DNA of 64,000 nucleotides. Origin: Verrucomicrobiota bacterium JB022. GTDB lineage: Bacteria > Verrucomicrobiota > Verrucomicrobiia > Opitutales > Oceanipulchritudinaceae. Shown in pieces: positions 6,235-37,602 of the stretch (the stretch's first letter is position 1; each line of letters begins with the position of its first letter). Below the pieces are notes generated by a model. The model had not been told where the DNA came from and ran no database searches. It saw only the letters and a program-made list of their open reading frames with translations. Location of the stretch: NCBI GenBank assembly GCA_030673845.1, contig JAUTCQ010000009.1:1-64000 (forward strand). Direction: 5' to 3'. The translations under genes were made by a program, and so were the position numbers.

Positions 6235-9200
6235 TTACTTAAGTTGGCTTCCATTTGGATACAAATAAAAGCTCTTATTGGGATAAAATCTAGTCCATTC
6301 CAGCTCGGATAGGTAGTAACCTGGAAGAAAACTTGAAGAATTTCTGCTGGATCTTGAAGTATCAAATCCTATGTCATAAATAAGACAACCCCGCGACATA
6401 ATATTCTCGATCCAAGCGAAGTTAGCAATTTCCATCGCTCCTAAATCACTCCTGCCTCCAGGTGCCCATAATGGCGACATCGGACGTAATTCAGCTAACT
6501 CCTGCAAAAATTGATCTCCCTCCTCATCCCAGATGAATGCCTCAGCTTGAAACATTGGTGTGGATGCGTTCGAGATCGCGTGAGCAACGCGTTTCCAATT
6601 TTCTCCAATTACGGCCTTACAATCACCCTTTTTACTGCGAATCCGCTGAGCCTGAGAGACTGAAACCGTGCCAGATTTCGTCTCCATCACTTCTTTCCGC
6701 ATATCAAGCGGTATCGTTACACTGGAAGGAGGCGCTTCAACCTCATCTGGCCACACATTAATAGACGGCCAAGGCACAGAAATGGCTGCCGTTTCCATAT
6801 GAAGCATGTATGTGAGCGCCACTACCCCCAGCAGGGCGAGGCCAACCGAGGCTGAAGAAAGTGAATACGCCTGAGCAAACATCCCACTCGGATCCACCCC
6901 CATCACCGGATTCCCGTGTGCATACAAATACTTGTGCAGCGTTTGCGGGTCGGAGCGGAAGCCTTCGTAGGTGTCCAGGGTGTGGAAGCGGCCGGTTTCG
7001 GGGTTGAGGTAGCGCGCACGCAGGAAGTACATCCCGAGGTCCGCGTCCCATTGCTCGCCGGTGTAGAGGTAGGCGTTGGGGGTGCCGTGGCCGGTGGCGC
7101 TCAAGAGGAGGCCGAAGGCGTCGTAGGTGTAGGCATCCGTCACCAGGCCCGCTTCGTCGACGAGGGCGCGCACCGTGCCGAGGCCGTCGTAGAGGTAATA
7201 CGACGTTTCCCAGTGATCCGGAGCCCCCTGCGGTAGCAGCTGCGTCTGGCTGATCAGATCATGCCCGTAGGCATACACCTTCTGGACAGTCAAAGAACCG
7301 GTAAAGTCTTCGACCAACTCTTCTAACACTTGGCTGTAGCCCGTCAAGTTGTTGCGGTCCACCAGGTAGTAAGTCGTGGCGTCACCGACCGTTTTCGCAA
7401 AGCGGTCGCCGTAGACATCATACGACACATCAATGACTTCCCCGCTTCCGGTAGTGCGGCGGATCAGCTTGTTGCGGTAGTCGTAGACGTCCGTGCCTGC
7501 GGGACTCAGCGTCGTGTTGCCGTTGAAATCGTAGGCATCACGCGTCAGCCAGTCGTTCGCGCTATAACCAAAGGTCTGCGCCCCCACCCCGGCCAGCGAC
7601 GAGGCACGCGTCAGGCGGTTGCCCACGTCATCGTAGGTGTAGCTCACACTGCCGTTATTGCCGTGGGGATCGTCCGCCACCGTTTCGCGCTGCAGCCGAT
7701 AAAGCTGGTCGTAGACATAGTCGACCACCCGACCGCTCGTCTCGGTTTGCCGCGTGCGCATCCCGCCGCGACTGAGCGTATACGCATAACTATTGTAGGT
7801 GCGCCCGTCCGTGTGACTGATATCCAGATTGGTAAGGCGGTAAAGTGAGCCGTAGCTCCAGACATGCGTGATGTCGTTGGCATACGTCATCGCAGCTAGG
7901 TTGCCCACCTCGTCATAAGCGTAACTGTGCGCCAACGGCGGTTGCTGCGCCCCGTGATCATAAACTTGCGCCAGTCGACCCAGCTCATCGTAGTCATAGG
8001 CGAGTTGAACGCCATTCGCATTATTCGAAGCGACGCCCGTCAACTGCCCCGCGGGGTTGTAGCTATAAGTGAGCGTGCCTTCAGCCGACTGCTTTGAGAT
8101 GAGGTGGCCTTGCGCATCATAAGCATAAATCTCACGGTGCAGAACTTCGTCCAGGTAGTTGTAAGTCGCGGCAGAAGTCAACTGCCCGGTGCCATCATAG
8201 GTATATTCCAGCTTGGCCGTAGCATGGGCATAGATCAGCGACGGGTGCGAAGGGTCAGCCTCCTCCGTCACCAGACGATCCATTCCATCATAGGTGTAGG
8301 TGGTGGTGTAGCCGTTGAAATCGGTGCGGGTGGTCAAGGCGCCATTCAGATGATAGGTATAGTGCTCCACCTGCCCCTCCGGCAGGGCACGCCAGGTGCG
8401 GCGGCCCATCACGTCATAACCATAGCGTGTGGTGTGCCCTTCCGCATCGGTCTGGGCAGTCACGTTGCCCGCCTCGTCATAGGCATAAGTGGTAACCGGT
8501 CGATCGCCCCCAGCCTCCGGGGCGGGTTGCGTCACCGTCAGCAAGCGCCCCAGCGCGTCGTAGCCGTAGTCGGTGCGCTTGCCCTTCTGATCGATCGAGG
8601 CGACGCGGCGCCCCAAGGTATCGTAGACCGTCTCCGTCGTCGTTCCGTCCGCATATGTGGTCACCGTCGGGCGGCTGAGCGCGTCGTAAGTCGTTGAAGT
8701 GGTGCGGCCGAGGGCATCTTCCACCGCGACCTGGTTGCCCGCCGCGTCGAAGAAGCTCTTCGTCACGCGCCCCAAAGCGTCCGTCACCGCGCCGCGACGG
8801 CCCGAGCAACCGCACTGATCGTCGTAGGTATAAAAGGTCGCATGGCCCAGCGCATCCACGCTCGTCTCCACCCGACCCAATGCGTCGTAGTCGTTGCTGG
8901 TAAAGGGGTTGTCCTGCAGCTCGGGGGCCGCGAGGACCGCCTCAACATTCCTCAACGCTGCCGGATCGGCCGGCATCGTCTCGTCGGGCAAGATGGTGCG
9001 CACCACCCGGCCCAGCGCGTCGTAGATGTAGTAGGTGGTGCGCCCAGCGCGATCGGTGCGCGAAAGGGAGCGACCTTCCGCATCGTAGACCGTGGAATCG
9101 AAGCGGCCGTCGGCGTAGGTCGTCTGGATCAGATTGCCACGCGCGTCGTAGGCGTAGGTCGTGGGGCGGCCCAGCTGGTCGATCGTCCGCGCCTGCTTGC

Positions 9201-12200
9201 CAATCGCATTGTATTCGACGCGGGAAGTGGTGCCGTCGGCATAAGTCGTCTGCACCACGCGGTCGTTCCGATCGTAGGCATACTGCGTCGTCGCCGTTTC
9301 TACTTCCAAGGCCGTGCCGGTGGCGTCGTAAACGGTGCGCTGCTGCGTCTGGCTCGTCTGATTGCCGCGGCTGTCATATGTATAGCTGCTGACCCGCAGG
9401 ACATTGCCGTTGGCGTCGCGCAGCTCCGTCCGCGTGGTGTTGCCCAGAGAGTCGTATTCGTGAGCCGTCGTATTACCCGCCCCATCTGTCATACTCGTGA
9501 GGTCGCCGCGGGCATTGTAGGCAAAGGCGGTCACATTACCCGACGCGTCTTCCATGCGCGTGAGATTGCCAGCGGCGTCATATGCAAACTCCGTCACGTT
9601 GCCATTCGGGTCTTCGATGGTCAGCGGGTTGCTGTTCGCATCGTAGGTGTAGGTTGTCGTGGCAACGGCCACTTCGCCCTCCGCGTTGGTGAAGTATTGC
9701 GTTTCGCTCAGCACGTTGTTGCGTGCGTCGTAGGTGCGCTCGGTCACGTTGCCCAGCGGGTCCTCTTCTCGCGTCACATTGCCGCGCACATCGTAATCCA
9801 TCCGCGTTGTCAGCCCTGGTCCTTCCAGGTTCTCGGGATCGACGGTGGTGGTCGCGACCACATTGCCCTCGAAGTCGTATTCGTGCACCGTCTCGAAGCC
9901 CAGACGGTCCACGATCACTTCCTTGCGCGTCGGAATGTCGTGCTCGAGCGTGATCGGGAAGCCTTCCGCATCCACCTGCCCGATCACCCGCCCCTGCTCG
10001 TCATATTCGGTGCGGATCGCCCGTACCCCACGAGGGTCGATGACCTCCGTCAGGTAATACGGGAAGGCGGCGTTTTCATAGCGATATTCGGTAAAGGTGC
10101 CATACAGCGGGCTCTCCGGGTCGTTGCCTTCGCGGTCGGTGAACTTCACCAGACGCCCCTCGGTGTCGTAGTCGTAGGCCAATGCGTTTCCGTCCGGGTC
10201 TTCGATCCGCGTGATCCGACCAGCACCGTCGCGGGTGAACGCAATCGAACGCCCACTGCTGTGGAAGACGCCATCCTCCGTAATCCTGAGCGTGTTCTGG
10301 TTGCGGTCCGTTACCTTACGCAGGCCCAAGACCTCCGCAATCTCCAACCGCGTGCCATCCAGGGCCGTGTAGACATATGCCTCCGGATCCAGCACCCCCG
10401 CCCCAAAGTCATCGATCTGGTAGATCCCGTCGCCGTCGTCGTCGACCAGCGGGAAGCTTGGATTGGCGGCAGTCAGTGCCAGAGAGCCGACCGAGCCATG
10501 AATGGGCCGAAAACGCAGCACAGCCGCCGTCGGTTGCGGGCCGATGACGGTACCCTGAGGCTCGGTGTAGGCTTCGAACTGCTCCACCTGCCCATCTCCC
10601 AGCACCACAGTCACAATTGCCGGACGGACGGGCCGGAAAACCCACCTCCCGGACAGGCCGCTGCTCGTGGCATCCAGATACCACTCGGAGCCGAGAGCGT
10701 GGTTTTCATAGACCTGAACCGCTCGGAGCCCCAGATCCCAGCCACGACCGAAATCTCCCTGCAGCTCACCACGGCTGTCGTAGCTACGCAGTATCTGCAC
10801 AGGGATGCCACTCACCGGCAACTGCAAATCCTCAAATGCTAATGCGAAATGGCCCACCTTCATCTGAGAGTCGACCACCACGGATTGCGCCACCTTGTAG
10901 GAGCGCCCGAGAACGTCCACCGCCCGCAGTTGAACCTCGTAGATACCATTGCGAAGCATCGTCGGGTCAAATGTGCCGAGCACCCCCGCAGTCACTTCTT
11001 GAGTGCCGGTTGCAAAGACGGTCCACTCGCTGGTGCCCTTAAGCCGGTGTGCCAGCGTATACTGCTCCAGCAGCGCACTGGTGACGGTGCCCACCACCGC
11101 TGTCGGCGCCGTCACAATAGAGTCCGCAGCGGGAGAAGTGAGTTCCGCAAAGGGCGGTGCATTATCGTCTGAAACATAAAGAGTAATGCCCATCGGGTCG
11201 CTGGCGAAGCCGGAATCGTCGGTAGCGACCGCCGTCAAATGACTTACGGGTGCGAGCACTTCGTTGTCTGGAAGCGATAATGTGAACGTGTCCCCACCGG
11301 CGGCACTTGCAAAACCAAGAGACTGGCCGTCGGCGAATAACTCGACTTGCGCAATCGTCCCGTCGGCGTCCGTGGCTCGCACCATTAGGGTCAGGGGTAG
11401 TCCTGGCTTCAGCACGGCCTCGTCTGTTGGCGAGAGCCAAGCCACCTCCGGGCCATGCACGACCTCAATCGTCACATAATCGAGGCTGTAGAGCTCGCCG
11501 TCGGACACATAAAATTGAAGCACATAGGTGCCCGCTTTTGAAAAGTAAGCTTGGACTTCTGGCCCCTGCGGCAGCTCGATTTCCACTGGCGCAGGACCCG
11601 AAATAAAGAGCCACTTTGCCGTAATCCAACCGCCCAAGGGCAGGCCGTCGTCGGCCACCTGGCCCACCAGACGCGCGCCCGCCTGCAGCGTTACCTTTTG
11701 ATCCGGACCAGCATCGATTTGCGGAGGCTGGTTGGGCAGCGGTTCGACGATAATGGTAACTTCATCAATCCCGGTCAAATCGCCGTCAGAGGCCGACAAC
11801 GCGAGAACGTAGGTGCCCTCAGTATCAAAACTCACTTGGGTGGCAATAGCGTTGGGTTGGGTGATCGAAACATTGCCTGGCCCGCTCACGAGCGACCATT
11901 GTGCCGTCAGAGTCGCCGGCAGGGGCAACCCATCGTCGCTGACCGAACCCTCAAGCGTCACTTGAGCATGCAGCGCCACCGTGCGGTCCGCTCCGGCATC
12001 GACAACAGGAGCCGTATTGGCAGGCAGGCGGTAGGATACCGTAACGCTGTCGCTCCCCTGAAGCTCGGAATCGTCTGCCGTGAGGGTAAAGGTATAGTCG
12101 CCAGGCACAGAAAAAACGACCTCCGTATCGAGAGCAGAGGGATCAATTATTGCGGCCCCCTGCGCAGGTTCCACGGTCCAACCAGTGGAAACCCCTCCTC

Positions 12201-15200
12201 CCTCTGGAAGACCATCGTCAGCAAAGACTCCGTGTAGCCAGATGCGATCCTGAGGCCAAGTGACGACCGAAGAATCGCCAGCATCTACAAAAGGAGCAAG
12301 ATTCGTAGGTATAGGCGGACAACGCCCTGCCCCACGGGCCGCGTAAATAGACTGTATCTCGCTGCCGGACAGAGCTCGGCTATAGATTGCCAGTTCGTCA
12401 ATTCGGCCGGCCAGAGTGCGTGTGTCAAAAGCTCCAAAGATCAGCGTTTCTGCCACTTCCAACAACATGCTCCCGTCGATCCGGTGGTAAACTTGAATGC
12501 CGTCGAGATACAGAGTGACACTGCTTTCGCTCTGATCCAAGACCACCGAAATATGATGCCACTCAGTGCCAAGGCTGGAGCCGACATAAAATGTGGTATA
12601 GCCTGATACGGTAGGATACGTGCAGTAGATTCTCGCGCCATTATAGTCCGAAAGCAGGCCGACATTGCCCCAACGGAAGAGGCCATCAACCCCTGCCCCG
12701 TCACGTTTAAACCAGAATTCTACTGTCAAGGCACCGGCGTGCTCAACTTGAGCAGCCGCCTCGCCAGAGCTGACCAAAAACGATTGTCCTCCCTGAAAGC
12801 CAAACCCATTGAGATAAATGCCCGCGTCGTGGCCTGCCAGATTTTGGCTCCGGGCTTCAAGGTTACCCTTCCGATCAAAATCGCTATTTCCATCCCAGAA
12901 CGCGACTAGACCTTCAGGAGAATCAACCGAGCACGGCTCATCGATACGAACACTTATGAATTTAGTTACAGAAGCCAAACCGTCGTTTGCCGTTAGTTGC
13001 AGAAGATAACTACCGGCCCGCGCAAAAGAAGCCGTCGAAGCCGCTAATCTAACGTCTTTGAACGCAACCAGTCCGGATGGCTCCTCACCATTGGCGATTG
13101 GCCCCATCAACACCTTCCACTCCGTAACGACATCCCCGCCCGGTAATCCATCGTCCGACACGCTAGCCCCGAGTCCTATTGATTCACCAACTGAGCCCGC
13201 AAGTGGATCCTGGGTTATATCGATCAGAGGAGCTTCATTTAAAAATCCCACCGGGCACCTACCGGATCCACCTGCTTTGTAAAGTGCTCCGATCTCAGCG
13301 GCATCCAGTGCGCGACTATAGATGGCGAATTCATCAAGCTCTCCGTTTAGTCGTCTATGGTCGTATGCCCCTACCAAAAGCGTCTCGGAAAGACGCGTTC
13401 GCAAATCCGGGTTTGCCAGTGTGTAAACTTGCTTCCCGTCCACGAAAGCCCGCAATCTTTGCTCTGGTTCACTGAGGACAACAGCCATGTGATGCCAGTC
13501 GGTGCCCAATGCAACTCCTGCGTAAGGTGAAGAGGATCCGCCTGCAACAGGATAGGTAAAGTATAGCCGCGCCCCGTTATAATCAGACAATACCCCAAAA
13601 TCTCCCCAACGAAACAGACCGTCCGTTCCTGCACCGCTCCTTCGCATCCAAAACTCGACAGTAACTTCGCCGGTTTCAGCAATACTTTCCAGCAGGGCAC
13701 CTACATCCGCTTCAAGTTCCTGACCATTGGCAAAGTGAAACCCAGTGGTATAAATGCCTGGCATGAAGGCCAGCGGAGCAACAACATCAAGCTCTATGGC
13801 ACCAAGCTGATCCCAGCGACGAGTCCCATCCCAGAAAGCGATGAGATCTGGAGGTGAGTCAAATGTGCATAAATCATCAACCCGGACCGTAACCTCATCC
13901 CTTCCTGAAGCTAACCCATCGGACACTTCCAACTGCAGCCGATATGTGCCGGGACGGGTGAAATTTACTTGGGGATCCAGCACATTCCTATCACTAAAAG
14001 ATACCAGTTCGCGGGGATCTTCAACTCCTGTAGAATTAGGGGCTTCAAGAACGTCCCATTCCATCCACAACTGGTTCAGCGGAGCACCATCGTCGCTTAC
14101 ATCACCATTCAGCGGCAGCGGATCTCCAACAGTCGTTACCATTAGATCTTCCTCTATCGTCACCATCGGTGCACTATTTGGCAGATATACCGGGCAGCGC
14201 CCCATACCCTTACCTTGATAAAGCGACACAATCTCCGCTCCTGTTAAGACACGGTCATAGATGGCAAATTCATCCAGCGACCCCGTCATTCTGCGGTGAT
14301 CATAGCCGCCTAGCCGCAAAACATCGGATAGCATAAGATTGAGGTTGGCATTCACGACTTTGAAGATGCGAACCCCATCAAGATAAACCTCAAACGAATG
14401 ATCTTCCTTCTTGAGGAGAAACGCCACATGGTGCCATTCCATCCCCAGTGCGACCGATACGTAGGGGGTAGCAATCCCGGTTGTTGTGGGGTAGGCGCAA
14501 TAAAATCTGCTTCCGCTGTAATCTGAGAGTGCACCCAAATCCCCCCACCGGAAGATGCCATCAACGCCTGCCCCGGCTCGTTTAAACCAAAACTCGACGG
14601 TAACCTCCTCACTTTCGGCGATCTGCTCCGCAAGATGCGGAACTCTCGCCTCAAGCTCTTGCCTGGAATCGAAGGAGAATCCTCCCAAGAACTTACCTTC
14701 TGAATAGTGGCCACATTCGCCACCGTCCAAAGGAACATCACCAATCAAATCATGGTACCCATCATTGCCATCCCAAAAGGCGATCAGACCGGAAGGAGAG
14801 GGTTCGCAGTCTTCCGAAATCCTGATTTCCTGCCGCTGGCGGGCTACAGCTATTCCGTCGGACACCTCGAGCTCCAACAGGTAAACACCTTGGCGTAAAA
14901 AGGTCGCACGCGTGCCCGGCGATGTGGGCTCATCAACAAGAACGAGATCATCTGGAGACTCTTCCCCGGTGGTCGGAGCGCTCAAGACATGCCAGAAATA
15001 CGTAAGATTTTCACTGGACTCATCAGGATCAGAAGCCGCCGCCTCTATCCAAACCACAGTATCATAAAAGTCGGCCGCGCTTAATAAAATAGGATCCAAC
15101 GGCTCAATCAAGGGAGGTCGGTTCAATATTTCGACGGTAAACTCCTGAATGGAAAATTCATCATTTCGGTCTAGCACCATAATGGATACAGGTACGAATG

Positions 15201-18200
15201 CCGGCGTATCTCCTGTCACCTTGAAAGTCAAAAGGCCCGTCTTCGAATCCAAGACCGCGTCCGAAGGCCCGCTTAAAAGTGTAAATATATGCTCGTAAGG
15301 TATGGCGTCTACGTCTTCAACTACCGGGAAGTAGCGGAATTCATCCGACAAGCATTCCCCTTCCACACCAAACGCGAAGGGAGGCCTGCTCAAGAAACGA
15401 GGACGCGTCTCAAGCGGAAGTGCTACAACTATACCAAACTCTTGCTGAGATCGCCCCCCATTGTCATCTCTGACTTCAATGACCACCTTGAAAGCGCCTT
15501 GGCTTTCGGGTGACCAGGAGATCATCCCGCTCTGTGCGTCGATCATCATCCCTACAGGATGCTCAATGAGGTGATAGGTCAGAAAATCACCATCTTCATC
15601 ACTCGCTTGGACACGATGTTGATAGTGAGGCGGCGGCACCAGTTCAAGGCTGGTGGTAAGGAAGAAGTTGGAGCCACAGCAGTAACGCTCAGCGAAAAAG
15701 ATGTCGAAATCGTAGGTTTTACCGACGGTCAGTCCCAATGTGTCGAGGTCTACATTGCCCTCGACTGGGCCATGCACGCCTCCCAGATCGACCACGAGTT
15801 TACGGTCTATAAAGACCCAAACGTCATCGTCCCCTCTAAACGAGAACTGTTCGCCTCCACGATAGGTAAAGGTGCTATGGCCTGTCATCGTGAAATAGCG
15901 GTTTAGCTCAGTTGAACCGAAATCGAGCAAGCGTGACGTCAAAGGAAAGAATTGGCTGCTCTGGAACTCGTAGATGCCAGAACCCGGAATCTTTTCCGCT
16001 AGGAACAGGGGCATCCGCGCAGTTTCATTTACTCCAGGCACATCATGAAACCATTGGTAAAAGCTATCCTCACTCTGTATCGCGTTCTGACTGATCGCAG
16101 TATTCAATACCGGCGTTCCATCGTCTCCCAAGGCATCCATAACCAGATTCTTTACCCACCCTGAGAGCGTCCATTGCATGTCGGGGTGCGAGCTAGTAAA
16201 GTCCCGAAATGTTGCCAAGATATAAGCACCTTTCTCCTCGGAGACCTCGACAGCTGTAATGGGAGTCGAGGTGAAAAACGGATCATGGTTGATGTGCCGG
16301 ACCGTAATCACAATTGTAGCTACCACCGAAGCTTCCCCGTCTGAAATCAGGATTTCAAACCCGTCAGTGCCCGAAAAACCCGGCAAAGGATCGTATCGGA
16401 AATCGGCTCCCGCGATGAAAGTAATGATCCCTCTCTCAGGAGCTGATCTAACCGTGAATGTGAGGTGATCGCCATCGACGTCATGCGCCGGAATCGTTCC
16501 CAACAGCGACTGGTCCTCATCCGTTTCGAGGAAAAGATCTTCCGCCACCGGCGCATCGTTTCGAGGCTCAACCTCGATCGTCACCTTCGCACTGGAAGAC
16601 GTCTGCCCGTCGGAGACGGAAAATGTAAAGCTGTCGGGCCCGAAGTAGTCGGTCGTTGGCGTGTAGTGAAAGCTGCCATCGCTTACCAGCCCAAGACTCC
16701 CATGCTGCACGTCGGAAACAAGTGCGAATGAAAGTGCGTCGCCGTCGACATCGGTGGCCGAAAGCAAACCGCTCAGTACAGTATCTTCTGGCGTCGTGTA
16801 AGTAGCCGCGATGGCGTGGGGCGCGTCATTGACCGGGGCAACGGTCACAACCACTTGCGCTTGAGCCGACAATTCACCGTCCGAAACTGCGACGCGAAAG
16901 GAATCGAGCCCGTTGAAATTGACCCTAGGCTCGTAGCGGAAGCTGCCGTCCATAGCGACAATTGCCGCACCGAATGACGGACCATCGACCAAAGAAAAAC
17001 GCAACTCGTCTCCATCCACATCTGTTGCTGTCAAGTGGCCTACCACTGCAACATCTTCGATCGTCTCCAGCGCTGAGTCTGCCATGATGGGCACGTCATT
17101 CACCGCCTCTACCTCGATCGAAACGATGGCAGTAGCGACGTATTCACCATCTGACACCTGATAGATGAAGGTGTCTTTACCGTTGAAGTTAAGAGGCGGC
17201 GTATAAGTGAAGCCACCTTCTGCCTGGATCACGACCTGACCGTAAGCAGGGCCGCTGACCAAGGTGTAGGTCAAGGCATCACCATCTGCATCCTGCCCTG
17301 CAAGCTGCCCAGCCAGAGCCGTATCCTCTGGCGTGGTGAATGCGAGATCCTGCGCTACCGGAACGTCGTTAACGGCAGCGACGGTAATGACCGCAACAGC
17401 ACGCCCGGAGAGCGCACCATCGGAGACCGAGAAGACGAATGTATCGGAACCGTGGAAGCCAGGCGGAGGCTCATAGACGAAGCTGCCATCTGTTTGTAGA
17501 CGCAATCTGCCGTGCGCAGGCGCTTCCACCATCTCGAAAGCAAGATCGTCACCATCCGGGTCGAAGGCGACGAGCAACGCGGCCAAAGGCGCTCCCTCGG
17601 CAGTTTGGAAAGCCTGGTCTGAGACTACCGGCGTCTGGTTTTCTGGCTCTGGCCCTACGGAACCATTCAAAGGAGCCAATACATCGATACGGCCACTGCT
17701 ATTGAGGGTCAGACGATCGACGGCAAAATTCCCTCTCAGACGTCCGTTAACCATCAGATGGCGATCAGGAGCAATCACGATGGCGTAGGCGGTGCAGCCC
17801 GTGTTCAGCGTCACGTCTCCCCGAGCCTCCAGGCGCACCCAAGCCGGGTTTGCAGAGCTTCCTACTTTGCCGTTGATCGTCAGCGAGTCGCGCAGGCGGA
17901 TGACCACCGGCCCAGCAACCTCGAGCTGGCTGTTGCCGTTCAGCGTCAGGCTCTCGAAGGAATAGACCTCCGGCGTTTCGGCACCGGTGGTTCCCAGGAC
18001 GAGGCCGCTTCCGGCATTGACGGTAAAGCGCCCGTAACGGCCTGCGGGAAGGGGCTTGAGGCCGACGTTCGAATTCAAGTTGAGATCACGCAGCGTCAAA
18101 GGGTCGCCAAACAGATCGGAGGGTGTGTTGAGCGTTACTTGGCGCGTCCCGCTCGGCGGAGTCCAATCCCCCACCCTCGGCAGTTCCGTGGCGTCCGTCC

Positions 18201-19392
18201 TCGTGACGATGTGTTGCAGCGTCGCGCCGCTATTCAGGTAGAGCGTATGGCCACTGGGGCTGGCCGCGCCCGCTCCCGGGGCCACACCAGCGAAAGTAGG
18301 CGTGCCATTTTGCACGATGGTAGGATCCCCTGGCAGATACCAATCACCCTCCACCTGCGCTCCCCCGTTTACACTGCCGCCTTCGGGCAGCATTTGCTGG
18401 AGATCCCCCGAAAGACGCCCATTCAGCGTGGGAAAATGCCTCACCTGCGCACGAACGGTCGCGTCGAGGTTACCGTCGTCTTGAAATGCATCTGGAGTGA
18501 GTTCGCTCGGAGTCGGGACCGGCTCTGGAAAAACTGCAAGCGGCGCTTGATCAATGCGCGCGCCTGAATTGAGCGTGAGCCATTTGGCAACAACGGGGCC
18601 TACGATGCGGCTGCGATCATTGAGCGTCAGACGCTGGTTCACCACCCGCACCTCGCCAAAGACCTCGGCTCCCGTGTTTAACGTAAGCCCGCCTTCGACA
18701 ATCTCCAGTCGTAGAAGATCAGGCCGGGCGGCGTCGCCCACCACCCCTTGCATGCTGGTCCAATTCTTGATCCGGAGGTCGACCGGCCCCGCCACGGCAA
18801 TGGCCCCGCCCGCGTTTAATAAGAGGTTTTCGACATAATAGACAGCTGGCTCGGACGCACCAGCAACTCCCAGGACCAGTGCGCTGCCGGCGTTGATGCT
18901 CCAACTACCGTAGCTCCCGGCTGGTAAGGCGTGAGAGCCCGCACCTTGATTGAGCGTCAGACCTTTGATGCTCGCAGCCTCTCCCAACGCGTCACTCGGG
19001 AGACTCAAGGTGATCCAACGTGATCCTGCAGGCGGCAAATACGTTGCCGCAGCAGGCCAGACGGGCGGATTGGAATTAATTTTCAGCGTCGCAAGTGTGC
19101 TTCCATGGTTCAGCGTTACTACCGACCCGATTGGCTCACCTACACTACCCCCTTCGACGATTTGACCTAGCTTACCACCCTGCGTTACGATAGATGGAGA
19201 GCCAACGACATACAAATCACCCGATATTTCAGCTCCAGAATTCAGGATCACGCTTTCGGGATGAACCTGAAGTACATTTCCTTCAATAACGCCGTTCAAC
19301 TCAATATTCTTATAGACAAGAACTTGGGCTTCCAGGCACACTCCAAAAATGGCACAAAGCAGCGCCATCCACGCGACAGGGAGGATTTTCAT
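6235..19392 (-). CDS. Giant Sec-exported Rhs/YD-repeat polymorphic toxin
   Basis: About 4,385 residues from the ATG at 19392, which gives a clean signal peptide (MKILPVAWMALLCAIFGV...LEA); an ATG at 19443 would add 17 residues in front. In order, counting from 19443: two copies of a ~270-residue polymer-forming-like repeat rich in LTLNSGA (40-590); five cadherin-like repeats of the NDVPVAQDL...DGDALTY...FNGKDTF type (600-1050); a fibro-slime/PA14-like domain (1080-1266, with FRGDDDVWVFIDRKLVVDLG); a cadherin-like pair; three LamG-like modules each starting GLIAFWDG and ending GRCP (1544-1750, 1858-2064, 2169-2376); PKD and Ig-like repeats (to 2860); the YD shell; the Rhs core ending DPSGMF (4188); and a 214-residue tip with no recognised family. 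The shell is expected to enclose the tip; the front half looks adhesive. Export is by Sec, not a type VI spike. Confidence 0.9.
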   Translation of the reverse strand: MKILPVAWMALLCAIFGVCLEAQVLVYKNIELNGVIEGNVLQVHPESVILNSGAEISGDLYVVGSPSIVTQGGKLGQIVEGGSVGEPIGSVVTLNHGSTLATLKINSNPPVWPAAATYLPPAGSRWITLSLPSDALGEAASIKGLTLNQGAGSHALPAGSYGSWSINAGSALVLGVAGASEPAVYYVENLLLNAGGAIAVAGPVDLRIKNWTSMQGVVGDAARPDLLRLEIVEGGLTLNTGAEVFGEVRVVNQRLTLNDRSRIVGPVVAKWLTLNSGARIDQAPLAVFPEPVPTPSELTPDAFQDDGNLDATVRAQVRHFPTLNGRLSGDLQQMLPEGGSVNGGAQVEGDWYLPGDPTIVQNGTPTFAGVAPGAGAASPSGHTLYLNSGATLQHIVTRTDATELPRVGDWTPPSGTRQVTLNTPSDLFGDPLTLRDLNLNSNVGLKPLPAGRYGRFTVNAGSGLVLGTTGAETPEVYSFESLTLNGNSQLEVAGPVVIRLRDSLTINGKVGSSANPAWVRLEARGDVTLNTGCTAYAIVIAPDRHLMVNGRLRGNFAVDRLTLNSSGRIDVLAPLNGSVGPEPENQTPVVSDQAFQTAEGAPLAALLVAFDPDGDDLAFEMVEAPAHGRLRLQTDGSFVYEPPPGFHGSDTFVFSVSDGALSGRAVAVITVAAVNDVPVAQDLAFTTPEDTALAGQLAGQDADGDALTYTLVSGPAYGQVVIQAEGGFTYTPPLNFNGKDTFIYQVSDGEYVATAIVSIEVEAVNDVPIMADSALETIEDVAVVGHLTATDVDGDELRFSLVDGPSFGAAIVAMDGSFRYEPRVNFNGLDSFRVAVSDGELSAQAQVVVTVAPVNDAPHAIAATYTTPEDTVLSGLLSATDVDGDALSFALVSDVQHGSLGLVSDGSFHYTPTTDYFGPDSFTFSVSDGQTSSSAKVTIEVEPRNDAPVAEDLFLETDEDQSLLGTIPAHDVDGDHLTFTVRSAPERGIITFIAGADFRYDPLPGFSGTDGFEILISDGEASVVATIVITVRHINHDPFFTSTPITAVEVSEEKGAYILATFRDFTSSHPDMQWTLSGWVKNLVMDALGDDGTPVLNTAISQNAIQSEDSFYQWFHDVPGVNETARMPLFLAEKIPGSGIYEFQSSQFFPLTSRLLDFGSTELNRYFTMTGHSTFTYRGGEQFSFRGDDDVWVFIDRKLVVDLGGVHGPVEGNVDLDTLGLTVGKTYDFDIFFAERYCCGSNFFLTTSLELVPPPHYQHRVQASDEDGDFLTYHLIEHPVGMMIDAQSGMISWSPESQGAFKVVIEVRDDNGGRSQQEFGIVVALPLETRPRFLSRPPFAFGVEGECLSDEFRYFPVVEDVDAIPYEHIFTLLSGPSDAVLDSKTGLLTFKVTGDTPAFVPVSIMVLDRNDEFSIQEFTVEILNRPPLIEPLDPILLSAADFYDTVVWIEAAASDPDESSENLTYFWHVLSAPTTGEESPDDLVLVDEPTSPGTRATFLRQGVYLLELEVSDGIAVARQRQEIRISEDCEPSPSGLIAFWDGNDGYHDLIGDVPLDGGECGHYSEGKFLGGFSFDSRQELEARVPHLAEQIAESEEVTVEFWFKRAGAGVDGIFRWGDLGALSDYSGSRFYCAYPTTTGIATPYVSVALGMEWHHVAFLLKKEDHSFEVYLDGVRIFKVVNANLNLMLSDVLRLGGYDHRRMTGSLDEFAIYDRVLTGAEIVSLYQGKGMGRCPVYLPNSAPMVTIEEDLMVTTVGDPLPLNGDVSDDGAPLNQLWMEWDVLEAPNSTGVEDPRELVSFSDRNVLDPQVNFTRPGTYRLQLEVSDGLASGRDEVTVRVDDLCTFDSPPDLIAFWDGTRRWDQLGAIELDVVAPLAFMPGIYTTGFHFANGQELEADVGALLESIAETGEVTVEFWMRRSGAGTDGLFRWGDFGVLSDYNGARLYFTYPVAGGSSSPYAGVALGTDWHHMAVVLSEPEQRLRAFVDGKQVYTLANPDLRTRLSETLLVGAYDHRRLNGELDEFAIYSRALDAAEIGALYKAGGSGRCPVGFLNEAPLIDITQDPLAGSVGESIGLGASVSDDGLPGGDVVTEWKVLMGPIANGEEPSGLVAFKDVRLAASTASFARAGSYLLQLTANDGLASVTKFISVRIDEPCSVDSPEGLVAFWDGNSDFDRKGNLEARSQNLAGHDAGIYLNGFGFQGGQSFLVSSGEAAAQVEHAGALTVEFWFKRDGAGVDGLFRWGNVGLLSDYNGARIYCTYPTVSGYTTFYVGSSLGTEWHHISVVLDQSESSVTLYLDGIQVYHRIDGSMLLEVAETLIFGAFDTRTLAGRIDELAIYSRALSGSEIQSIYAARGAGRCPPIPTNLAPFVDAGDSSVVTWPQDRIWLHGVFADDGLPEGGGVSTGWTVEPAQGAAIIDPSALDTEVVFSVPGDYTFTLTADDSELQGSDSVTVSYRLPANTAPVVDAGADRTVALHAQVTLEGSVSDDGLPLPATLTAQWSLVSGPGNVSITQPNAIATQVSFDTEGTYVLALSASDGDLTGIDEVTIIVEPLPNQPPQIDAGPDQKVTLQAGARLVGQVADDGLPLGGWITAKWLFISGPAPVEIELPQGPEVQAYFSKAGTYVLQFYVSDGELYSLDYVTIEVVHGPEVAWLSPTDEAVLKPGLPLTLMVRATDADGTIAQVELFADGQSLGFASAAGGDTFTLSLPDNEVLAPVSHLTAVATDDSGFASDPMGITLYVSDDNAPPFAELTSPAADSIVTAPTAVVGTVTSALLEQYTLAHRLKGTSEWTVFATGTQEVTAGVLGTFDPTMLRNGIYEVQLRAVDVLGRSYKVAQSVVVDSQMKVGHFALAFEDLQLPVSGIPVQILRSYDSRGELQGDFGRGWDLGLRAVQVYENHALGSEWYLDATSSGLSGRWVFRPVRPAIVTVVLGDGQVEQFEAYTEPQGTVIGPQPTAAVLRFRPIHGSVGSLALTAANPSFPLVDDDGDGIYQIDDFGAGVLDPEAYVYTALDGTRLEIAEVLGLRKVTDRNQNTLRITEDGVFHSSGRSIAFTRDGAGRITRIEDPDGNALAYDYDTEGRLVKFTDREGNDPESPLYGTFTEYRYENAAFPYYLTEVIDPRGVRAIRTEYDEQGRVIGQVDAEGFPITLEHDIPTRKEVIVDRLGFETVHEYDFEGNVVATTTVDPENLEGPGLTTRMDYDVRGNVTREEDPLGNVTERTYDARNNVLSETQYFTNAEGEVAVATTTYTYDANSNPLTIEDPNGNVTEFAYDAAGNLTRMEDASGNVTAFAYNARGDLTSMTDGAGNTTAHEYDSLGNTTRTELRDANGNVLRVSSYTYDSRGNQTSQTQQRTVYDATGTALEVETATTQYAYDRNDRVVQTTYADGTTSRVEYNAIGKQARTIDQLGRPTTYAYDARGNLIQTTYADGRFDSTVYDAEGRSLSRTDRAGRTTYYIYDALGRVVRTILPDETMPADPAALRNVEAVLAAPELQDNPFTSNDYDALGRVETSVDALGHATFYTYDDQCGCSGRRGAVTDALGRVTKSFFDAAGNQVAVEDALGRTTSTTYDALSRPTVTTYADGTTTETVYDTLGRRVASIDQKGKRTDYGYDALGRLLTVTQPAPEAGGDRPVTTYAYDEAGNVTAQTDAEGHTTRYGYDVMGRRTWRALPEGQVEHYTYHLNGALTTRTDFNGYTTTYTYDGMDRLVTEEADPSHPSLIYAHATAKLEYTYDGTGQLTSAATYNYLDEVLHREIYAYDAQGHLISKQSAEGTLTYSYNPAGQLTGVASNNANGVQLAYDYDELGRLAQVYDHGAQQPPLAHSYAYDEVGNLAAMTYANDITHVWSYGSLYRLTNLDISHTDGRTYNSYAYTLSRGGMRTRQTETSGRVVDYVYDQLYRLQRETVADDPHGNNGSVSYTYDDVGNRLTRASSLAGVGAQTFGYSANDWLTRDAYDFNGNTTLSPAGTDVYDYRNKLIRRTTGSGEVIDVSYDVYGDRFAKTVGDATTYYLVDRNNLTGYSQVLEELVEDFTGSLTVQKVYAYGHDLISQTQLLPQGAPDHWETSYYLYDGLGTVRALVDEAGLVTDAYTYDAFGLLLSATGHGTPNAYLYTGEQWDADLGMYFLRARYLNPETGRFHTLDTYEGFRSDPQTLHKYLYAHGNPVMGVDPSGMFAQAYSLSSASVGLALLGVVALTYMLHMETAAISVPWPSINVWPDEVEAPPSSVTIPLDMRKEVMETKSGTVSVSQAQRIRSKKGDCKAVIGENWKRVAHAISNASTPMFQAEAFIWDEEGDQFLQELAELRPMSPLWAPGGRSDLGAMEIANFAWIENIMSRGCLIYDIGFDTSRSSRNSSSFLPGYYLSELEWTRFYPNKSFYLYPNGSQLK
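6878..7765 (-). repeat. Rhs core, main copy shared with copies 2 and 3
   Basis: The part of the giant gene that is repeated at 2652-3535 and 5039-5781. It extends from the DPSGMF codons back through GRFHTLDTYEG, GEQWDADLGMYF and NRLTRASSLAGVG to RQTETSGRVVDYVYDQ. In this copy the frame is open throughout. It supplies the homology through which a displaced tip could replace the present one. Confidence 0.9.
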
Positions 19393-19443
19393 AGGATCGG
19401 GAAGTAAGCAGCAGAAAAACGATCTAAACGACCAAGGCTGCAT

Positions 19444-34664: not shown

Positions 34665-35870
34665 CTACTGTGTCACAATGACTTTCAACCCTTCCTGGCG
34701 CAGATTGACCTGGATGGCTTCGTCGATCTCCGCCAGCGGAAAACGGTGGGTGATCAAAGAGCTGACGGGGAGGCCCATGCGCTCGGCCCGCTGCAGGAAG
34801 TGGTAGGCGTTGGGGTATTCAAAGCTGTTGTAAACCCAGCTGCCGGTAATGGTGATTTCTTTTTTGCAGACGTCCCGATGGGGGTTGATCTGGCATTCGC
34901 CCCCATCGACAAAGTGGCCGATTTCGCAAATGCCACCGCCTCGGCGGATGCACTTGAAGAGGTTGGCAAAGGCTGCGGGAACGCCTGTGACCTGAAAGCC
35001 GAAATGCGCCCCCAGCCCCTTGGTCAGGCTCGCCACCTGGGCCGCTACCTCATCGATCCCGGCATAATCGCGGTAATTGAGGGTGTCGTCGGCGCCCAAA
35101 CTGCGAGCCATCTGCAGGCGATCGTGGTTCCCATCGATGGCGATGATGTTGTTGACCCCGTAGCAGCGCAGAACTGCGATCATGAGCAGCCCGATAGGAC
35201 CGCAACCTTGGACGACGACGCGGGAGCGAAAACTCAGGGGGACGCCGCATTTCTTGGCGCGCTCAAGGGCGTGACATACGACGGCGGCAGGCTCGATCAG
35301 GCAACGCAGCTCCACACTCATATCGTTGACGACGAAGAAGGAGGAGCCGGGGCGGATAATGAGGTATTCGCCGAAATAGCCGTTGAAGTGGTAATCGGGC
35401 TGGTCGGGGAGCAGACCATAGACTTTCAGGTCGTCGCAGAGGTTGCTCTTCGCCGGGTTATATTTGGCGATCAGGCAATCCTGCGAAGCTTCGAGGATGC
35501 TGGTCACGATTTTGTCTCCCGCTTTGATAGGCTTGCCTACGCTATCCATCTGGATCTCGCTGCCCACTTCCAGCACCGTGCCAGTCCCTTCGTGCCCCAG
35601 CACCACCGGAGCCAGGCCGAATGGGTCGGACTTGTAGCAATGCACATCGGTACCGCAAACCCCACAAGCCTCGACCTTGACCAGAATTTCATCGGGCCGG
35701 ATCGCGCGCAGGGGAAACTCCCGGATTTCCAAGGTCTTGGGCGCAGTCAAGACCGCCGCCCGCCCTTTGGTTGGCTGCGACTGCGAGGAAGGCGCCTTGG
35801 CATCAGTCGATACCTTGGCAACAACGTTTCGCACGATTTCTTCGATCATCTGGGGACTGAACTGGCTCAT
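34665..35870 (-). CDS. Zinc-dependent alcohol dehydrogenase with N-terminal targeting-like helix
   Basis: 401 residues, medium-chain dehydrogenase/reductase. Catalytic zinc residues are seen in ACGVCGTDVH, LGHEGTGTV and LIEPAAVVCHAL; the Rossmann motif is GCGPIGLLMI. The usual four-cysteine structural zinc lobe is replaced by a stretch with only two cysteines (SQDCLIAKYNPAKSNLCDD). Ahead of the catalytic domain is an extra ~35 residues: an amphipathic helix (QMIEEIVRNVVAKV) and a Ser/Gln/Pro linker. That layout is characteristic of encapsulation peptides on enzymes targeted to bacterial microcompartments. It lies downstream of, and on the same strand as, a broken MFS gene. The substrate is not known; propanediol/lactaldehyde metabolism would fit the planctomycete-verrucomicrobial microcompartment, but no shell genes are in the window. 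Confidence 0.85.
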   Translation of the reverse strand: MSQFSPQMIEEIVRNVVAKVSTDAKAPSSQSQPTKGRAAVLTAPKTLEIREFPLRAIRPDEILVKVEACGVCGTDVHCYKSDPFGLAPVVLGHEGTGTVLEVGSEIQMDSVGKPIKAGDKIVTSILEASQDCLIAKYNPAKSNLCDDLKVYGLLPDQPDYHFNGYFGEYLIIRPGSSFFVVNDMSVELRCLIEPAAVVCHALERAKKCGVPLSFRSRVVVQGCGPIGLLMIAVLRCYGVNNIIAIDGNHDRLQMARSLGADDTLNYRDYAGIDEVAAQVASLTKGLGAHFGFQVTGVPAAFANLFKCIRRGGGICEIGHFVDGGECQINPHRDVCKKEITITGSWVYNSFEYPNAYHFLQRAERMGLPVSSLITHRFPLAEIDEAIQVNLRQEGLKVIVTQ

Positions 35871-36013: not shown

Positions 36014-37263
36014 TTAAGCACGCGGCACCTTGCGCTGTGACAACTTCCTGACTTCCAGGAAGGTCAGGAGCGCAAATATCAGCCCAACGACAAAGGCGCT
36101 TCCAAAAACATACAGGCTCACGCGGTAGCTCTGGGTTTGCTCGTAGACAATGGCGCTGAGGAGGGGGCCCACCACGCCCGCGACGGCCCAAGCAGTGAGC
36201 AGCTTGCCCAGGATGGCCGAGAGCTCCCTCACTCCAAACACATCGCCAATAAAGGCGGGCATCAGCGCAAAACCTCCGCCATAGCAAGAGATGATCACAC
36301 AGACTGCAAACTGGAAGGCGACAGGATGGCTTAGGCTAGGCAGGGCCCAAAAAAGACCAAACTGCAGGATACAAAAGAGACCGAAGACCTGGGCCCGCCC
36401 TAGGCTATCGGACAGGCTCGACCACGCGATCCGTCCGAGACCGTTAAAGAGCCCCATCAGGCCCACCATCGTTGCTGCGGCCGGCGCACTGAGGCCTGCA
36501 ATCTCTTGCGACATGGGAGCAGCAGCCGCGATTACCGCAATACCACAGGTGATGTTGATGAAGAGCATTGCCCAAAGGTAGTAAAACCGCTTTGTGCGCA
36601 GCGCTTCCGTGCATGTCAGCTGCAGGGCTTGCGGATGGCGCGGCGCATCTGCCGCTACAGTTACGTTGAGGCCTCCGCCGGGCGCCCATCCTGCGGGCGG
36701 CGGGGCAAGGTAACGCGACGAGAGCACCATGATCACCAGATAGGCCACCCCCGAACCTACGAAGTCGCAGGAATACCGACAGTCTCGATCAAGACCACAA
36801 AGATCTTGCTGGCAAAGAGCGCACCAAATCCGAAGCCCATCACCGCGAGACCGGTGGCCAAGCCACGCCTGTCGGGAAACCACTTCACCAGGGTGGCGAC
36901 GGGGCAGATATAGCCGATGCCCAACCCCACCCCAGCCACAACGCCATAGCCTGCGTAGAAAAGCCAAAGCGTGCCCAGATGCACCGCGACACCCGCCAGA
37001 ACAAGGCCCAGCCCATAAAAGACGGCCGCGATCTGGCCGCTAAGCCGGGGCCCCATGCGCTCGACGCGGGGCCCCAGAAAGGCCGCCGACAGCCCCAAGA
37101 CCAAGATAGCGAGGCTAAAGGCCCAGGCCGTTTCAGGGGGCTGCCAGCCAAGCTCCTGCAAGAGCGGCTTCTTGAACACACTGTAGGCATAAACACTGCC
37201 AATAGAGACATGGACACCCATCGCAGAAGCAGCAATGAGCCAACGGTTTTTAAGCTTTTCCAT
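36014..37263 (-). pseudogene. OFA-type MFS transporter interrupted by one frameshift
   Basis: The first part, from [20 protein letters not shown] (37263), encodes about six transmembrane helices in the OFA (oxalate/formate antiporter-like) branch of the major facilitator superfamily, with [15 protein letters not shown] and [15 protein letters not shown]. It stops at 36757 after VGIPATS. The rest of the transporter continues in another frame from about 36770 ([19 protein letters not shown]) to 36014. One missing T in the ACTTCG stretch near 36766 would restore a normal 12-helix protein (GIPATFVGSG). No other lesion is seen, so this is either a very recent mutation or a sequencing error. The likely substrate is a small monocarboxylate. 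The dehydrogenase gene follows 143 nt downstream. Confidence 0.85.
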
Positions 37264-37602
37264 TCCAATCGTTGTCAGGCGCATACGTGGCCCCCGATTC
37301 GGCAAAGATCGCCCTCGCCCTTTCCAACGTATCGCGGCATAGGACAGGCGAATCCTTCAGCTCACAGGGTAACTGAGACTGCGTATTTCGTCTCACTCAT
37401 TTTGTGAAAGGGCAAGATCTCAACGCGTGGCACATCCTCGTATCCCCTGATCTGTCCAATGCAGTGTGGATGAGTCTCCCACCGGAAACTCGCCGGCCTC
37501 CGCGCGGCTTACGCCGCTTCCGCAGTGTATACAGACACAAAAAAGCACGCCATTTTAGCGTGCTTATCAATCGGAAAGTCTTGATCTACAAAGTAGATAA
37601 AA
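37264..37602. other. Intergenic region before tRNA-Tyr, no gene seen
   Basis: 339 bp with the MFS promoter region at the left and the tRNA-Tyr terminator (37539-37565) at the right. No coding region is supported. Confidence 0.6.
37539..37565 (-). terminator. Terminator after tRNA-Tyr
   Basis: On the minus strand AAGCACGC-(7-nt loop)-GCGTGCTT is a perfect 8-bp stem followed by a T-run. It lies about 40 nt beyond the tRNA 3' end. Confidence 0.9.

Follow-up and report, generated by a model that had tools for sequence, protein, structure and literature searches.

A zinc-type alcohol dehydrogenase with an encapsulation-peptide-like N-terminus is a probable NAD+-recycling cargo of the PVM microcompartment

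We analysed the first 64,000 nucleotides of contig C9 (JAUTCQ010000009.1) of Verrucomicrobiota bacterium JB022, hereafter the window, which carry a gene for an alcohol dehydrogenase (ADH) with an unusual N-terminus. A sequence-only reading of this DNA had proposed that the enzyme is a satellite cargo of a bacterial microcompartment encoded elsewhere, since its N-terminus has the layout of an encapsulation peptide and no shell protein lies in the window. This raises the question of whether the genome encodes such a compartment, whether the enzyme belongs to it and which reaction it might carry out there.

The gene is a 401-aa open reading frame beginning with ATG (34665-35870, minus strand), in which a domain search identified the Pfam domains ADH_N and ADH_zinc_N. 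With both domains and the catalytic zinc ligand positions present, the enzyme belongs to the zinc-type medium-chain dehydrogenases/reductases (MDR). In the alignment of homologues Cys69 is found in 56 of 57 sequences, and His93, Glu94 and Glu193 are each found in all 57; we take Cys69, His93 and Glu to be the ligands of the catalytic zinc. An aspartate after a Rossmann strand favours NAD over NADP, and the corresponding Asp246 is invariant among 37 aligned sequences, which points to specificity for NAD. No equivalog among the NCBIfam models reached its cut-off. The nearest were threonine 3-dehydrogenase, HpnZ and scyllo-inosose dehydrogenase, all far below their cut-offs, and the relatives by sequence are mainly secondary-alcohol and polyol dehydrogenases. 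An AlphaFold2 model built from 37 aligned sequences (mean pLDDT 91.1) has a folded core from residue 35, and butanediol, threonine and sorbitol dehydrogenases are among the characterised proteins closest to it in fold. The closest solved structure, both by sequence and by fold, is TM0436 of Thermotoga maritima (1vj0; TM-score 0.84 by query and 0.92 by target, 30% identity), with a sequence alignment that covers only residues 45-399 of the ADH.

Encapsulation peptides are described, in the available parts of PMC8217296 and PMC12339742, as terminal amphipathic helices of about 15-20 residues joined to the enzyme by a flexible linker. The AlphaFold2 model of the ADH has this layout: a helix at residues 6-21 (PQMIEEIVRNVVAKVS; 35808-35855, minus strand) is followed by a disordered linker at residues 22-34 (35769-35807, minus strand), with pLDDT below 50 at residues 21-29. 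The linker varies in length and sequence among homologues. We derived a 14-position profile of targeting helices from the other cargo enzymes, 85 termini in all (29 aldehyde dehydrogenase N-termini, 28 aldolase C-termini and 28 PduL N-termini), leaving any ADH out. On this profile the ADH N-terminus scores 11.8 bits and ranks first among 144 termini from the ATG-started open reading frames of at least 150 aa in the window, the next reaching 8.7; just 36 of 20,000 shuffles of residues 2-36 reached its score. The helix and linker that had been read from the letters were thus borne out by the model and by comparison with the other enzymes of the compartment. The tag is recognisable, yet it scores below those of the aldehyde dehydrogenase and the aldolase, whose lowest training scores are 13.2 and 14.3. 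PduL N-termini, some of which probably have mis-called starts, fall as low as -6.2. The hydrophobic moment of the helix is only slightly out of the ordinary (matched in 653 of 20,000 shuffles and by 4.6% of 16-mers from the core) and by itself is weaker evidence for a tag than the profile score.

The same pattern recurs in 30 tagged homologues, a count that omits the frameshifted locus L092. Their profile scores run from 7.4 to 28.1; motif positions 4, 7, 8 and 12 are hydrophobic in all 30 and position 11 in 28, position 8 is valine in every one, and the positions between are mainly polar. A sequence search of the JB022 genome with the extension, a short query, returned only the ADH itself.

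The JB022 assembly (4.35 Mb in 25 contigs, 97% complete) does encode a compartment. In a genome search, shell genes turned up only on contig C8, between 63.6 and 68.1 kb, three of them PF00936 and three PF03319; the window on C9 has none, in keeping with what had been claimed. The ADH gene and the shell locus are at least about 50 kb apart even if C8 and C9 were adjacent in that orientation. The C8 genes run in the order PduL, BMC-H, BMC-H, AckA, BMC-H, BMC-P, ALDH, BMC-P, BMC-P, class II aldolase and LDH. BMC-H and BMC-P shell proteins, a tagged class II aldolase, an acylating aldehyde dehydrogenase, PduL and acetate kinase are thus found together, and by gene content this single, complete locus is a Planctomycetes-Verrucomicrobia (PVM) metabolosome for rhamnose or fucose, a type described in PMC4207490, PMC8857213 and PMC8217296, as far as their available text goes. 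The pvm locus of Planctomyces limnophilus shares its parts, namely three BMC-H, three BMC-P, a C-terminally tagged class II aldolase, acylating aldehyde dehydrogenase, PduL, acetate kinase and LDH.

On contig C12, L-rhamnose isomerase shares a cluster (L164:5132-10713, about 133.1-138.7 kb of C12) with a LutA/GlcF-like protein, a LutB-type lactate-oxidation protein whose score clears the model's cut-off and a rhamnulokinase-like gene whose score falls short of its own, so that rhamnose entry and lactate oxidation are encoded together. For this reason L-rhamnose is a likely substrate of the compartment, and lactate would be a product that is oxidised further. The fucose-isomerase domain matches on C17, the only ones in the genome, were judged unreliable, and we recognised no clear FucI.

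We then compared the distribution of the tag with that of shell genes, using an order sample of 372 genomes and a phylum sample of 387, with some genomes in both; homologues in the order sample were taken at E <= 1e-60, and the lists of homologue and shell genomes were matched by eye. In the order sample 124 genomes have shells and 27 have an ADH homologue. The N-termini of all 27 were read, giving 23 tagged and four untagged forms, one of the latter (L070) cut by a contig end. Shells are present in all 23 tagged genomes and in two of the four untagged (G080 and G143, but not G038 and G328). In the phylum sample, where 65 genomes have shells and 45 have homologues, shells accompany the tagged form in 8/8 genomes and the untagged form in 0/37; 24 of these 37 N-termini were read directly, including one with an uncertain start (L099), and for the other 13 the starting point of the alignment alone was used. 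Neither sample yielded a tagged extension in a genome without shell genes, an occurrence that would have told against the targeting reading. Of the two findings named beforehand as contrary to the proposal, this one and a JB022 genome lacking shell genes, neither thus came up. One untagged homologue (L111, G400:C21) has a 45-residue N-terminal extension rich in Lys, Ala and Pro that scores -8.7 on the profile, in a genome without a shell match. Among named genomes with a homologue, at least ten of which are also in the order sample, shells were found in 17 of 17. This set includes Rubripirellula, Rhodopirellula, Aporhodopirellula and one Phycisphaerales MAG, and the tagged form therefore also occurs with shells in Planctomycetota.

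Fisher tests of tag against shells gave very small p values. In the tree, tagged and untagged sequences are split along essentially one branch, save for one very long outlier row, and because of this the co-occurrence counts are not independent and the p values overstate the case. What the counts do indicate is that, within one enzyme family, the division into a tagged and an untagged branch closely follows the presence of the organelle. Of the 124 order-sample genomes with shells, about 100, G016 of the same genus among them, have no ADH homologue at E <= 1e-60. Hence the ADH is not essential to this compartment type, and most PVM compartments presumably must recycle NAD+ in another way or with a more distant enzyme.

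Gene order in the relatives links the ADH to the compartment. In nine of the 17 named loci it is the last gene of a complete shell operon, after the aldolase and malate dehydrogenase (MDH); cultured relatives with this operon form include Pelagicoccus mobilis and Coraliomargarita sp. SDUM461004 (loci L081 and L088). G005 keeps this order, the ADH following after a further 1.4 kb, and in G101 a single contig carries shells and ADH, separated by about 5-7 kb. In the remaining loci, JB022 among them, the ADH was not seen beside shell genes, and it is on this ground that the JB022 copy can be called a satellite, as had been proposed; in the relatives mentioned the gene belongs to the main locus itself. 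No conserved partner appeared in those clusters of untagged homologues that were inspected. One operon copy of the ADH (L092:10001-10546, CAKZOI010000073.1) is broken by a frame change into two tblastn pieces, which could be an assembly error.

Upstream of the ADH in the window lies an MFS transporter gene (36014-37305, minus strand) whose best model is the L-lactate MFS transporter NF049980. It matches the model in two consecutive parts (1-158 and 159-376) in different frames, and so is frameshifted or misassembled near 36760. We considered it as a conserved partner of the ADH and rejected this, since the related loci searched gave no match; it is a possible functional neighbour only. The window also contains, at 6235-19443 on the minus strand, an open frame of 4402 codons for a giant predicted protein.

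The structural zinc lobe sets the tagged enzymes apart as well. Many, though not all, MDR members have a four-cysteine structural zinc site. TM0436 retains the four cysteines, unlike the ADH, in which they align with S129, C132, A135 and C145. The lobe had been described as reduced; it is in fact still present (residues 124-151; 35418-35501, minus strand), and what has degenerated is the site, with two of its four ligands replaced. The first and third cysteines are replaced in all 29 tagged sequences counted (the fragment L074 and L092 being left out), and the fourth is serine in nine of the 29, whereas 26 of 28 untagged homologues keep all four. Two sequences without tag or shells, L070 and L099, lack an intact site as well, which suggests that loss of the structural zinc preceded gain of the tag. 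Polyol dehydrogenases provide known cases of such a loss, and it is therefore a marker and not a novelty.

Taken with the tag, the shell locus, the co-occurrence and the operon membership in relatives, the comparison supports the microcompartment-cargo reading. We consider it probable that the ADH is a cargo of the PVM microcompartment and works in its lumen as an NAD-dependent lactaldehyde reductase, supplying the aldehyde dehydrogenase with regenerated NAD+. The predicted encapsulation is well supported on comparative grounds; the substrate and the reductive direction we infer from the compartment type and the tag. The helix and linker would act as an encapsulation peptide, and the ADH would assemble together with the aldolase, the acylating aldehyde dehydrogenase and PduL, all of which bear helices of the same pattern. 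Within the shell, the aldolase would cleave rhamnulose-1-phosphate or fuculose-1-phosphate to DHAP and lactaldehyde, and the aldehyde dehydrogenase would convert one lactaldehyde to lactyl-CoA with formation of NADH. Reduction of another lactaldehyde to 1,2-propanediol by the ADH would restore NAD+ in the lumen, the part played by PduQ in the Pdu compartment.

The enzyme could instead be a cargo that has a different substrate or catalyses an oxidation, taking for instance 1,2-propanediol to hydroxyacetone or lactaldehyde to methylglyoxal, as secondary-alcohol dehydrogenases do. Its nearest families and folds, which handle threonine, scyllo-inosose, butanediol and sorbitol and include HpnZ, lean that way, but the family models score far below their cut-offs, and an ADH that consumed NAD+ would be expected to compete with the aldehyde dehydrogenase for the luminal pool; we regard this as unlikely, though worth keeping in mind. 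More doubtful still is an ordinary cytosolic dehydrogenase whose helix serves oligomerisation or is incidental, and which keeps company with shells through shared ancestry alone. The single branch that divides tagged from untagged rows would be expected under such an account, as would the lack of linkage to the shell locus in JB022. Against it, the helix fits a profile made from other cargo of the same compartment, the gene lies inside the shell operon in 9/17 named relatives, and the tagged form and shells also occur together in Planctomycetota. On the co-occurrence and operon evidence we rejected it as the best reading.

The untagged homologues in the shell-bearing genomes G080 and G143 count against our preferred reading. 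There is also the question of whether the extension is translated at all, given that no strong ribosome-binding site precedes the ATG at 35870 and that a second ATG follows seven codons downstream. A start at Met8 would drop the first turn of the helix but keep most of it together with its hydrophobic pattern, and the amino-acid pattern is conserved in all 30 homologues next to a variable linker, so that an artefact of the start codon is very improbable.

The reading of the ADH as a cargo that recycles NAD+ bears on how PVM compartments regenerate this cofactor. Metabolosomes are thought to need the return of NAD+ within the shell (PMC4784909, in part), and the lactate/malate dehydrogenase of PVM loci was predicted to be the recycler, being the only candidate in the locus (PMC4207490, in part). 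We found no targeting helix on the LDH or MDH of the loci analysed at either end; on the profile the termini of 14 LDH sequences, both ends scored, reach at most 6.3 bits and those of 11 MDH sequences at most -0.9. Of 19 loci from genomes with tagged ADH, 11 have MDH as their dehydrogenase and six an LDH-like enzyme, and in two none was found, whereas in nine genomes without it LDH is found in eight, none in one and MDH in 0/9. This contrast leaves out L149 and L147 (cut off or empty), counts G080 as without tagged ADH, and is biased because the ADH itself led to 9 of the 11 MDH loci. In two PVM loci (L153 and L154, in G068 and G036) no LDH or MDH match lies near the aldolase, and a tagged ADH is encoded elsewhere in these genomes, where it may be the only recognised NAD+ recycler.

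A wider proposal, about as likely as not, is that the tagged zinc ADH and not the predicted lactate/malate dehydrogenase is the true luminal NAD+ recycler of a PVM branch spanning Verrucomicrobiota and Planctomycetota. On this view an ancestral dehydrogenase with no tag would have lost its structural zinc site and acquired an encapsulation peptide, and LDH would later have been replaced by MDH in one set of loci. NAD+ regeneration in PVM compartments has so far rested on prediction; the tagged ADH is an operon member in relatives, and the LDH and MDH of the loci analysed are untagged. As judged from sequence comparison, the place of this ADH as a satellite cargo is well supported, and we read it as a metabolosome core alcohol dehydrogenase, zinc-type and tagged, in a system whose NAD+ recycler was previously only predicted.

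A published scheme, reported in PMC6620236, has one lactaldehyde reduced to 1,2-propanediol and another oxidised; the tagged ADH fits the reductive step and supports a 1,2-propanediol branch of rhamnose and fucose breakdown in Verrucomicrobiota and Planctomycetota. Orellana 2021 has 1,2-propanediol in the legend of a pathway figure and an unspecified "dehydrogenase" from a BMC locus, which may be the tagged ADH. Among the passages covered by our literature search, none describes a zinc ADH with a tag in loci of the PVM type.

In the Pdu compartment, NAD+ is returned within the shell through aldehyde reduction by PduQ, which is of the iron-dependent family. The role that we propose for the ADH, recycling of NAD+ inside a shell by reduction of an aldehyde, is like that of PduQ, whose type of core alcohol dehydrogenase is cited in the accessible text of PMC4784909. 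The passages covered on the pvm system give this task, by prediction, to a lactate/malate dehydrogenase, and none of them names a tagged zinc ADH. The GRM5 compartment for fucose and rhamnose of Clostridium phytofermentans has a zinc-type ADH alongside a homologous aldolase (PMC4207490, in part); it is a different compartment with a different pathway from PVM, and its ADH is compared here by description only. Unlike PduQ, the JB022 enzyme is a zinc-type MDR protein with an N-terminal helix and linker, and it is encoded away from the PVM locus that it would serve.
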